A stretch of DNA of 36,577 nucleotides from Verrucomicrobiaceae bacterium (GTDB taxonomy: Bacteria; Verrucomicrobiota; Verrucomicrobiia; Verrucomicrobiales; Verrucomicrobiaceae), in contig JAIXVB010000518.1 of the NCBI GenBank assembly GCA_027483245.1, positions 1 through 36,577 of the forward strand, read 5' to 3'. Shown one piece after another: positions 26,554 to 30,621 of this stretch. The notes under the pieces are model-generated. The model did no database searches. It saw only the letters and a program-made list of their open reading frames with translations, and was not told where the DNA came from. Position 1 is the first letter of the stretch; each line of letters begins with the position of its first letter. A program made the translations under genes and the position numbers.

Positions 26554-27249
26554 ATGACTGAACTGATTTCTAAAGGAGGACCCCTCGTATGGCTTTTATT
26601 GGCCTGCATGGGCTTTTCTGTCGCCATTTTCCTGGAACGACTCGCCTACTATCATCGGGTGAGCATGAATATCGGCGAGTTTCTCGCGGGGCTCGCTGCC
26701 TTGATTCGGAAGCGGAACTATGCGGAGGCCCTCCAGGAGGCACTGGCCACCCGGGTGCCTGCTGGGCGTGTGATTCATGCGGCCCTGTTGCGCCATCATG
26801 CCCCACGTGAGCAGCTGAAGGAAATCGTTCAGGAGGCAGGTCAGCTCGAAGTGCCGCGTTTGGAGCGTTATTTGGGCATCCTGAATGCCATTGCCCACGT
26901 CGGACCCCTCATTGGTTTGCTGGGCACCGTCATTGGTTTGCTGGACAGCTTTACCAATCTGTCCTCAGCCAACGGCATCACCACACCGGCCGAGGTTGCT
27001 CGCGGAGTTTATCAAAGTTTGATCACTTCGGCACTCGGGCTTGTGGTCGCCATCCCCGCTTACCTTTGCTACGCCTTTCTGAGTGCTCGTTCCCGCTCAA
27101 TCATGCATGATTTGGAGCGCGCGGGGGTGGAGATCGTCAACCTGATCGAAGATGCGAAGACCACGGACAACATCGTCGAATTCCGTCAAGCCACGACAGA
27201 GGACTCAGGGACGCCAAATAAAGGTCGCAGCCGGACTCACCGTGCGTGA
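26554..27249 (+). CDS. MotA/TolQ/ExbB-family protein
   Basis: ISKGGPLVWLLLACMGFSVAIFLERLAYYHR; HVGPLIGLLGTVIGLLDSF; VARGVYQSLITSALGLVVAIPAY. The GTG at 26527 is an alternative start. Confidence 0.9.
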   Translation: MTELISKGGPLVWLLLACMGFSVAIFLERLAYYHRVSMNIGEFLAGLAALIRKRNYAEALQEALATRVPAGRVIHAALLRHHAPREQLKEIVQEAGQLEVPRLERYLGILNAIAHVGPLIGLLGTVIGLLDSFTNLSSANGITTPAEVARGVYQSLITSALGLVVAIPAYLCYAFLSARSRSIMHDLERAGVEIVNLIEDAKTTDNIVEFRQATTEDSGTPNKGRSRTHRA

Positions 27250-27701
27250 TTGATGCTTCTAAAGGTCACTCCAACCGCCTACCGATGAAGCTCGAAAGCC
27301 ATCTGCCGAGGCAAAGTCCCTGGCTCTACATCACGCCCCTGCTGAATGCGATCCTGCTTCTGCTGGTGTATTTTCTCTTCAGCAGTGGTTTTGTGATTCA
27401 GTCGGGCATTACGGTGGAAAAACCGCGCTCCTCGAGTCGGCTAACAGGCTTCGATCGGGCGCACATCATCACGCTGGCGGCAGGCAATGAGGCCCCCATC
27501 TACTTCGATGGACGCCGCATCACGTTTGACCAGCTAAGTCAGCGTCTGGTGGATAGCCGCACGGGCGAGCGCCGCGTCATCATCCATCACGATCGTCAGG
27601 CTCCAAGTGGGCGAGTCGTGGAGATCATCAATCTGGCACAGGAACTGGGCTTTGAGGCAGCTTTGTCCACCACTCCTTCACAGACACCTCTGGTTCCATG
27701 A
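27246..27701 (+). CDS. ExbD/TolR-family protein with Asn at the TM Asp position
   Basis: Single TM YITPLLNAILLLLVYFLFSS; periplasmic part with IYFDGRRITFDQLSQRLVDS. GTG start overlaps the upstream stop by 4 nt; ATG 27285 is an alternative. Confidence 0.8.
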   Translation: MIDASKGHSNRLPMKLESHLPRQSPWLYITPLLNAILLLLVYFLFSSGFVIQSGITVEKPRSSSRLTGFDRAHIITLAAGNEAPIYFDGRRITFDQLSQRLVDSRTGERRVIIHHDRQAPSGRVVEIINLAQELGFEAALSTTPSQTPLVP

Positions 27702-28441
27702 AGCATTCGCATCGGCATGAGCCCAGGCCACTGACCTTTGACTGGCATGCCCATGATCGGAGCCTGGTGCGCATGGGCTTAGCCCTGCTGATGACTCTGA
27801 CAGTGATCGTTTGCCTGTTCATCGTTTTCCGGGTCGTGACACCGGAGACTCGCCGTCCCGACATTCGCCCGCAGCGTGTGCTGGTTTTGAATCCGTTGAT
27901 CCCGGCCGAGCGTGCTCTGATCCATCAGGCCATGGACCGCAGTTTTGGTCTCTTGCCCACAGAACCCCTGGTGGCAGACCCTGCGGCAGCGCTTAAACTG
28001 CCCACGTTTGAGCCGAGTTACGCGCGTCATGAATTGCGATTGAAACCCCTGCCCACAGGTCTGACAACATCGACGCAGGCTCGGCCCTTTGCTTTGGATA
28101 TCGACATCTTGCCGCCTTTATCTGGCACGCCCAAGACGACGACTCAGCCTGTGGTTTCTTCGGTCCTGAGGGCCGTTGTTGGCGGTGGATTGGCGGCTCG
28201 GGCGACTCAGTCTGTGGAGGTCAAAGAAGTGTTGTTAGCCGATGTGACACGGCCTCGTTTTCAGGTCGGTGTCGGCCCGTTGGGGCAGGTGATCGTAGCC
28301 TTGCCGCTCGCGGTTTCAGAAGACCCTGAGATGGTTCAAAAGCTGCATCATGCGATCACTCAGATGCGCTTCGCTCCCTCTTCAAATGAGATTGAGTGGG
28401 GGCAAATTTCCTTTCGTTGGGAAAAGGAGGGCGCTCAATGA
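27698..28441 (+). CDS. TonB-like single-TM protein
   Basis: His-rich N-terminus, one TM, C-terminal FQVGVGPLGQVIVALPLAVSEDPEMVQKLHHAITQMRFAPSSNEIEWGQISFRW resembling a TonB C-terminal domain; 4-nt overlaps at both ends. Confidence 0.6.
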   Translation: MKHSHRHEPRPLTFDWHAHDRSLVRMGLALLMTLTVIVCLFIVFRVVTPETRRPDIRPQRVLVLNPLIPAERALIHQAMDRSFGLLPTEPLVADPAAALKLPTFEPSYARHELRLKPLPTGLTTSTQARPFALDIDILPPLSGTPKTTTQPVVSSVLRAVVGGGLAARATQSVEVKEVLLADVTRPRFQVGVGPLGQVIVALPLAVSEDPEMVQKLHHAITQMRFAPSSNEIEWGQISFRWEKEGAQ

Positions 28442-28680
28442 TCGGCATCGGATTGGCAGAGCTGATCATGCTGGTGATGCTGATCGTCGTGAGTCTGGTT
28501 TGTGGCCTGTGGTTCTACACCTTTTGGCGTGAACAGCGCCGTGAGACTCAACGCCGCCGAATTGCCATTCAGTGCCGCATTTGCGGCTGCACCTATGCGA
28601 TTCCAAAGAAGTCTCCACACATCACTGTTTGCCCCTCCTGCGGAAGTCACAATGAGCGTGGTGGTCAGCCGCAAATTTGA
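28438..28680 (+). CDS. Small membrane-anchored zinc-ribbon protein
   Basis: IGIGLAELIMLVMLIVVSLVCGLWFYTFW TM helix followed by CRICGCTYAIPKKSPHITVCPSCGSH; ATG 28438 overlaps the upstream stop (ATGA). Confidence 0.7.
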   Translation: MIGIGLAELIMLVMLIVVSLVCGLWFYTFWREQRRETQRRRIAIQCRICGCTYAIPKKSPHITVCPSCGSHNERGGQPQI

Positions 28681-28693
28681 AGTTTAGCGGTGT

Positions 28694-30109
28694 CTATTCG
28701 ACGCGCACCTTGAGCATTGGCGGTGTGTTTCGCATGTTCTCTTTGCTGGCAAAAGCGTGAGCGAGTCCATTGCTGGCGGTCTCATCGGTTTCGCGAACAA
28801 TGATGAAAGTGACGAGGCCATTGGTGTCTGCGTTGAGGACCTCTGCAAGTGCTTCACCCTTGATCGAAAAAGCACCGCGTGTGGTGCCTTGAGGGACTAA
28901 AAATTGACCGATCAGGCGCGATTGATCCGCGACAGCGCTGGTGCGCAATTCAGGATTGTGAGCAGGTGCCTGTGACCACTTCAGCTCTTTTTCACTCCAT
29001 GTGTCTTGGCTCTCGTCCGTGAGGGCATACACCTTAAAAGTCGCATCGGGCACCAAAGAGGCGAAACCGAGATCGCTTGGCTCCATATGCAAGACGAACT
29101 CCGCTTCGGCGATGTGCTTTCCGCTGAAGCGTGTGAGGTCAAAGGCCACGTAAGCTTTGCGATCCAGGTTCATGCTGTGGGTCGTGTGCTTCACGCGCAG
29201 GTAGGACTCACGCCCAGTGGTTTTCTGACTGTTCTGCGATTGAATCCAGGAGTCCTGACCGCGCCCAAAAGCGGTGGTGATGAGCTGCCAGCCATCTCCG
29301 AGATCGTTGATGGGTCCCGGCAACCAGCGCCCAGGCTCTGGTTGATCGTTGTGATCGGCGTCGGGGTTAACGGCGCTTTGGATAAATCCGCCATAATCCA
29401 CTCGTTGGCCCGCCCGCAACTCTTTCTTGGCCGGATCGCCCGCGCGTTCGACTTCGACCAAACCTTCGATCACGTGCACCAGGCATTTGCCATCTTCACC
29501 GGCACTCACGCCAAAACGTGTGCCGTAATCCACGACTTTGGTTTCAGGGGTGTGAATGGTGAATCCCTTCGCCTGTGGGGGCACTTCGGCGACGACCGTG
29601 CCTTTGCGAACGCGACATTCCATGGCAGAGATCACCTCAAGAGTGACTGGGGCCTCCAGCGCGACTTCGGCCCCGCTGGCAAATTTGAGCGTGGCGATGC
29701 CATCCAGCAGTTCCAACATGCCGGGTTTCAAGCGTGAACCTTCCAGAGTGGGCAGTGCACTGTTTCCCCATTTGCAGGCGCTGGCTTTGGTCAGGGTCGC
29801 CACTGATGCAGGCTCGCGCTCAAAAAGCCACACAGCCCCAGCGGCCAGGATGGCGGCGGCGCTGGCTGTGAGAGCATGAAACCGCCATTGCGTGCTGCGC
29901 CGAGAGACCTTGGCGGGTACCGTAGGCGCGGCGGTCAGCGCATCGCTGCGGAGTTCGGCATCCATCAACGCGGTACGTGCGATCAGCTCGCGCACTTCAG
30001 CGTTTTTTTTGATCGCTTCATTGAGCGTGGATTGTTCGACTTCAGTCAGGGCGTGGTCGCGTGCGCGTTCCCACAGCTCGAGCCAGCGCCAGGTTTCATC
30101 AGGTTTCAT
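28694..30109 (-). CDS. FecR-like anti-sigma factor with C-terminal DNRLRE/CBM96-like domain
   Basis: TM ALTASAAAILAAGAVWLFE; FecR core GAEVALEAPVTLEVISAMECRVRKGTVVAEVPPQAKGFTIHTPETKVVDYGTRFGV; C-terminal DRKAYVAFDLTRFSGKHIAEAEFVLHM. Confidence 0.82.
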   Translation of the reverse strand: MKPDETWRWLELWERARDHALTEVEQSTLNEAIKKNAEVRELIARTALMDAELRSDALTAAPTVPAKVSRRSTQWRFHALTASAAAILAAGAVWLFEREPASVATLTKASACKWGNSALPTLEGSRLKPGMLELLDGIATLKFASGAEVALEAPVTLEVISAMECRVRKGTVVAEVPPQAKGFTIHTPETKVVDYGTRFGVSAGEDGKCLVHVIEGLVEVERAGDPAKKELRAGQRVDYGGFIQSAVNPDADHNDQPEPGRWLPGPINDLGDGWQLITTAFGRGQDSWIQSQNSQKTTGRESYLRVKHTTHSMNLDRKAYVAFDLTRFSGKHIAEAEFVLHMEPSDLGFASLVPDATFKVYALTDESQDTWSEKELKWSQAPAHNPELRTSAVADQSRLIGQFLVPQGTTRGAFSIKGEALAEVLNADTNGLVTFIIVRETDETASNGLAHAFASKENMRNTPPMLKVRVE

Positions 30110-30621
30110 GGGTGAGCCTCCAATTGTTTTTGCACGCAGTCCATCAGGGTCACACGCACTCGGCTGAGCGCGCGATACACGGCTGCCTCAGTGCGGCTGA
30201 CACGGTCTGCGATTTGATCGATCTCCAACTCGTCGTAGTAGCGCAGATGAATGAGTTGGCGGTGTTCGGTGGGCAGCTTGTTCAGACACGCGCGCAGGGC
30301 GTCTTGGCGCGGGGAGCCATCATCGGCGAGTTGAGAAACCGCATGTCCCAGAGCTTCCAGGGCTTCTTCATCCAGGGGCAAATGCTCGCGCTTTTTCTGC
30401 CTTCGATGCGTGAGGATCTGATGAAAAGCCGTTTTGCGAGCCCAGGCGAGGAAGTGGGTGCCGAGGGTGAAGTCATCGAAGTGTTTCCAAAGCAGCAGCT
30501 TCGTCTGTTGCAGGATGTCCTCGGCTTCGCTATCGCGCGGAACGAGCCCATGAACATAAAGACTCAACGCCCGATCATGAGCGGTGAGCAGTTCCAGGAA
30601 AGCAGTCGTTTTATCAGCCAT
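30106..30621 (-). CDS. ECF-type sigma-70 family RNA polymerase sigma factor
   Basis: DSEAEDILQQTKLLLWKHFDDF...FLAWARKTAFHQILTHRR...LPTEHRQLIHLRYYDELEIDQIADRVSRTEAAVYRALSRVR; 4-nt overlap with fecR-like gene. Confidence 0.92.
   Translation of the reverse strand: MADKTTAFLELLTAHDRALSLYVHGLVPRDSEAEDILQQTKLLLWKHFDDFTLGTHFLAWARKTAFHQILTHRRQKKREHLPLDEEALEALGHAVSQLADDGSPRQDALRACLNKLPTEHRQLIHLRYYDELEIDQIADRVSRTEAAVYRALSRVRVTLMDCVQKQLEAHP

Follow-up and report, generated by a model that had tools for sequence, protein, structure and literature searches.

Current models of 5:2 motors rest on a single aspartate of ExbD, TolR and MotB that is described as strictly conserved (PMC9008036) and is called essential. 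An operon of Verrucomicrobiaceae carries asparagine at this position of its ExbD-like protein, which raises the question of what such a complex does when the aspartate is gone, and whether the change belongs to one genome, to a decaying locus or to a lineage. The operon lies in a window of 36,577 nucleotides (the whole stretch of DNA analysed here, contig C518), which is part of a 5.56-Mb, 92%-complete MAG resembling Prosthecobacter, with Prosthecobacter and further Verrucomicrobiaceae as its closest named relatives. It consists of four genes on the same (+) strand whose ends overlap or nearly abut:

26554..27249, + strand: exbB-like gene, 231 aa, PF01618 (Pfam MotA_ExbB E=3e-29; TolQ/ExbB matches in the PDB)
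27285..27701, + strand: exbD-like gene, 138 aa, start MKLES (Pfam ExbD E=6e-15; start kept among orthologs)
27698..28441, + strand: TonB-like gene, 247 aa, with an N-terminal TM helix, a disordered linker and a TonB-type C-terminal domain (AlphaFold and Foldseek; class orthologs)
28438..28680, + strand: gene for a small protein of 80 aa with one TM helix and a four-Cys zinc-ribbon-like tail (sequence; orthologs)

The open frame of exbD runs upstream to a GTG at 27246, and the start that is conserved in the orthologs is the ATG at 27285 (MKLES), 13 codons inside this frame, and not the GTG. The stop codon of the TonB-like gene is overlapped by the start of the 80-aa gene (ATGA). This zinc-ribbon-like fourth gene (28438-28680) adjoins the motor genes in many members of the class, and several other families have guaB (IMP dehydrogenase) directly after it (L159, L160, L175). 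In the window, the minus strand at 28694-30618 encodes an ECF-type sigma factor adjoining a protein in which a FecR domain is fused to a carbohydrate-binding module, CBM96. In a survey of the genus and order, 55 of 56 genomes gave matches at E <= 0.001, a count that includes paralogs; clear orthologs were present in 31 other genomes of the same genus (56-89% identity) and, at 31-45% identity, across the order. The exbB-like orthologs share 76-94% identity within the genus and about 50% within the order.

Both motor proteins passed the curated Pfam cut-offs, ExbB with 101.8 bits against PF01618 (cut-off 22.9) and ExbD with 55.9 bits against PF02472 (cut-off 25.4), and the top Foldseek matches of the predicted ExbD fold were the ExbD periplasmic domains 8pek, 8p9r and 8vgc (probability 1.00). 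None of the equivalog models for ExbB, ExbD, TolQ and TolR (TIGR02797, TIGR02804, TIGR02796 and others) reached its cut-off; TolQ, for example, scored 86 against a cut-off of 221 and ExbD_2 scored 35.6 against 123. The two proteins are thus members of the superfamily outside any named equivalog. On the tree, the subfamily's ExbD and ExbB proteins fall into a clade of their own, distant from the paralogs, and the window genome has a separate ExbB/ExbD/TonB set on contig C574 in which Glu, Asp and His are all intact. The same genome (G000) harbors two TolQ-like clusters with tandem, non-identical ExbD/TolR genes (C39 and C268, L006-L009), and the product of the next gene in the C39 cluster is reminiscent of the vWA-transducer arrangement published for PVC bacteria. 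In G000:C671 (L012) and in G016:C3 (L242), a long, repetitive and charged open frame ends in a match to the ExbD-like domain without its TM helix; the L012 frame comprises 211 aa and begins with a secretion-signal-like stretch.

The positions equivalent to Asp25 and Glu176 were located by HMMER alignments against PDB chains of E. coli ExbB and ExbD. The residues considered below are:

26608..26610, + strand: Met19 in TM1 of ExbB, at the site of E. coli Ser34 (subfamily alignment, column 18)
26926..26928, + strand: Thr equivalent to ExbB Thr148, retained (Thr in 120/120 subfamily loci)
27013..27015, + strand: Gln (CAA) at the ExbB Glu176 position (sequence, PDB alignment)
27028..27030, + strand: Ser at the ExbB Thr181 position (ortholog and PDB alignments)
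27345..27347, + strand: Asn (AAT) at the ExbD Asp25 position (PDB profile alignment, ortholog tables)

A sequence-only reading of this DNA, which used ungapped alignments and probably the exbD frame that opens at the GTG, had already assigned Gln to Glu176, Asn to Asp25 and Ser to Thr181 and had noted that Thr148 is kept, and the HMMER and PDB alignments agree with it. The interval that it gave for the two exchanges, 26998-27341, covers the Gln codon, but the Asn codon falls 4-6 bases beyond its end.

All Verrucomicrobiaceae orthologs with ExbD read have Asn at the Asp25 position except for three loci with Thr, and Asp was never found. The rule also holds for the isolates Brevifollis gellanilyticus and Verrucomicrobium sp. 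BvORR034/106. The window genome is fragmented into 758 contigs, a circumstance in which faulty assembly or annotation of the MAG might be suspected; such an error has a negligible probability and is refuted by the orthologs, for the same residues recur in dozens of assemblies made independently, and isolate genomes have them too. Among the sister families, f3 and f6 have Asp, f4 and f5 have Asn, and f2 is mixed. Across 120 loci of the class, the column contains 75 Asn, 34 Asp, 4 Thr, 3 Ser, 2 Gln, 1 Gly and 1 Cys, and in 85 non-redundant rows (44 Asn, 32 Asp, 4 Thr, 2 Ser and one each of Gly, Gln and Cys) Asp is absent from 53. On a tree of concatenated ExbB and ExbD from which the trait columns had been left out, Asp and non-Asp states require 14 parsimony changes, with at least nine independent pairs when only well-supported branches are used. 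Profile-matched loci from other classes of the phylum have Asp in 16 of 20 cases and lack it in the remaining four.

Among the ExbDs checked, the loss is confined to this operon, since the other TM-bearing ExbDs of the window genome have Asp in 10/10 cases and ExbD paralogs sampled from related genomes in 40/40 (an alignment-based count). These results demonstrate that the absence of Asp is a recurrent trait of one orthologous operon, mostly in the form of a change to Asn, with the genes intact. No report of a natural ExbD family without the Asp was found in a search of open-access literature, which leaves out most subscription journals and preprints. The ten Asp-containing ExbDs of the same cell might, on the other hand, supply what the operon lacks, if the Asn-type ExbD formed one half of a mixed dimer and a paralog contributed the Asp. 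Paired heterologous tolR-like genes are indeed known in PVC bacteria (PMC12204202), but the operon contains a single exbD and no co-linear partner gene, and its ExbD and ExbB lie far from the paralogs in the tree, so that we consider a mixed dimer unlikely.

The sequence-only reading had proposed a matched loss in both subunits. This proposal does not hold. The Glu176 position is labile: within the subfamily it is occupied by Q, E, K, R, T, S, M, L, H, N or V, it varies also in relatives that contain Asp, and in the Asp-containing paralogs of the window genome it is Gly, Val or Ser. Gln176 is paired with Asp25 in 8 loci and Glu176 with Asn25 in 9, and no association of the changes at the two positions was detected on the tree (independent pairs, median sign-test p = 1).

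The concerted change that had been overlooked is that of His20 of the TonB-like protein with Ser34 of ExbB. AlphaFold predicts for the TonB-like protein a single TM helix at the N terminus, followed by a disordered stretch and a C-terminal domain of beta-beta-alpha-beta type, and in a Foldseek search against the PDB ranks 1-13 were all C-terminal domains of the TonB family (TonB/FusB), with probabilities of 0.94-1.00 for ranks 1-10. Searches of the window protein against Pfam and NCBIfam gave no significant match, and the TonB_C cut-off was not reached; two orthologs from the class pass TonB_C (E=4.9e-6 and 3.1e-5), and orthologs also pass TIGR01352. In most of the class, the TM helix carries the His of the SxxxH (SHLS) motif, as in 'LSLLGHVLCFYLF' of L064; it was found in 51 other class loci and is absent from the window protein, from the Verrucomicrobiaceae orthologs read and from f2.

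In E. coli, TonB His20 touches ExbB Ser34 (PMC12215075). The Ser34 column of ExbB contains Ser in 51 of the 52 loci scored as having the TM His and in none of the 60 without it; His and Ser are thus present or absent jointly in 111 of 112 loci. The lone mismatch, L175, is mis-scored: its His lies away from the His20 site, where the helix borders the cytoplasm. All independent His/Ser changes seen were concerted, although their number (only 3-4 events) leaves a formal test unable to reach significance. Because His20 and Ser34 were gained or lost together, there is strong evidence that the third gene encodes the true TonB partner of the operon's ExbB, docked at the homologous site. The alignments also show that the window lineage exchanged the His20-Ser34 contact for hydrophobic residues. 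The paired exchange independently supports, on evolutionary grounds, the contact that cryo-EM had revealed. Co-variation of the ExbD Asp with the TonB His was likewise considered: the raw counts are suggestive (30 loci with both, 56 with neither, 22 with His only and 4 with Asp only), but they are not independent on the tree, and we do not assert this association. The 22 loci that lack Asp and retain His indicate that the loss of Asp is not merely part of a general shutdown.

Around the pore, Pro141 of ExbB is invariant (120/120 loci) and the Thr181 position is mostly Ser or Thr. Exchange of Thr181 for Ala occurs only among Asp-less members (14/86 versus 0/34 with Asp), as does the loss of Pro190 (9/86). 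No replacement acidic or basic column was found in the ExbD and ExbB pore helices of Asp-less members. These patterns fit a proton path that may have been relaxed within a conserved architecture. Nevertheless, the complex could still be proton-driven, through a polar ring of Thr148 and Ser181 together with water positioned by the Asn, or through an unrecognised residue. The invariance of Thr148, the prevalence of Ser and Thr at position 181, the largely polar nature of the replacements (N, T, S, Q) and the conserved architecture, including the co-evolving TonB contact, would all agree with this explanation. We nonetheless regard it as rather doubtful, as E. coli ExbD D25N, like TonB H20A, has no activity (PMC11658791), the pore helices offer no alternative protonatable column, and the Thr181 to Ala exchange and the loss of Pro190 are restricted to members without Asp.

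The loss of Asp might also mark the onset of decay in a system under relaxed constraint. Consistent with this, D/N toggling is frequent between close relatives (L161/L162, L137/L171), and decay is seen in one 0.9-Mb reduced genome with a Ser-type ExbD (G071, L159), whose TonB-like gene is interrupted by stop codons after about 70 codons, while G079, a sister of the same genus, has no operon at all. The broken gene also rules out the use of this reduced genome as proof that the operon is essential. However, reading frames are intact and synteny is conserved in about 30 genomes of the same genus and in many families. The dN/dS of the window ExbD relative to its closest two orthologs is about 0.07, and the median values for comparable pairs are 0.24 for ExbD, 0.06 for ExbB and 0.22 for the TonB-like protein, all approximate, with some pairs near synonymous saturation. 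The operon genes are under purifying selection, and the co-varying TonB/ExbB contact speaks for continuing selection on the assembly. The Asn25 codon is AAC or AAT depending on the genome, and there is a strong preference for Asn among the replacements, which implies that the Asp25 site still has a role. Decay of the operon is therefore quite improbable. The sequence-only reading had likewise argued against random decay, and the argument stands because the change to Asn is fixed across the family, under purifying selection and unaccompanied by a substitute acid. Its suggestion was a non-proton-driven, differently coupled or purely structural complex, and for the same reasons a complex that is not driven through this residue is plausible, although the loss of proton drive remains inferential.

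Our preferred explanation is that the operon product is a Ton-type 5:2 membrane complex, consisting of an ExbB pentamer and an ExbD dimer, with its own TonB-like partner that would span the periplasm. Its ancestor was presumably proton-driven, and proton cycling through ExbD may have ceased. MotB D22N is a mimic of the protonated state (PMC9389320), and Asn may in the same way imitate protonated Asp and fix the axle in one state. A complex with Asn at the Asp25 position is most likely unable to go through the canonical cycle, and the assembly would then be a static tether or scaffold across the envelope and not a motor. A tether that is not proton-driven is favored because assembly, partner contact and reading frames have been maintained. 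On balance, we hold it about evenly poised whether the complex has kept its 5:2 architecture, is not driven via the canonical Asp and acts as a static tether or scaffold. There is a comparable, roughly even chance for the broader proposition that a Ton-type 5:2 lineage found throughout the phylum has repeatedly and independently given up the Asp, giving rise to natural envelope-spanning complexes that are PMF-independent or differently energised. If true, these would be the first "5:2 motors" that lack a proton carrier in the wild type. The subfamily offers a natural way to ask whether 5:2 complexes can function in the absence of PMF, and its Asp-less members and their close Asp-bearing relatives form natural pairs for probing the role of the Asp beyond proton carriage.

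Among known systems, the operon is close to E. coli ExbB-ExbD-TonB (PDB 6tyi, 9ddo), with which it shares the gene set and order, PF01618 and PF02472, the ExbD periplasmic fold, the TonB C-terminal fold, the pore residues Thr148, Pro141 and Pro190, and homologous positions of the TonB-ExbB TM contact. Unlike the E. coli system, it has Asn for Asp25 in ExbD and Gln for Glu176 in ExbB, replaces both the SxxxH motif of TonB and Ser34 of ExbB, has a short TonB-like linker that is not proline/lysine-rich, and includes the zinc-ribbon gene as a fourth member. With TolQ-TolR-TolA (PDB 9ddm, 8odt) it has in common that TolQ is the best TIGR model for the ExbB-like protein (E=2.8e-24, far below the cut-off), but, in contrast to Tol-Pal, it contains neither TolB nor Pal, its partner has a TonB-like fold, and the equivalent of Asp23 is missing. 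The PVC vWA force transducers are likewise verrucomicrobial TolQ/TolR-like motor operons with alternative transducers (PMC12204202); one of their families retains the SHLS motif and adjoins tolR-like pairs, and the other bears the Asp on the vWA protein (PMC12204202), whereas the operon in the window has no vWA domain. MotAB stators with D22N or D32N share with it the Asn at the proton-carrying site and a locked, protonated-like state, but they are laboratory mutants, while the Asn described here is a natural and conserved state. The TM Asp of the axle subunit (Asp25/23/32) is the hallmark of proton-driven 5:2 motors and is missing in the window. The complex is of a known kind, a 5:2 Ton/Tol complex, and what is new is a natural subfamily without the Asp.
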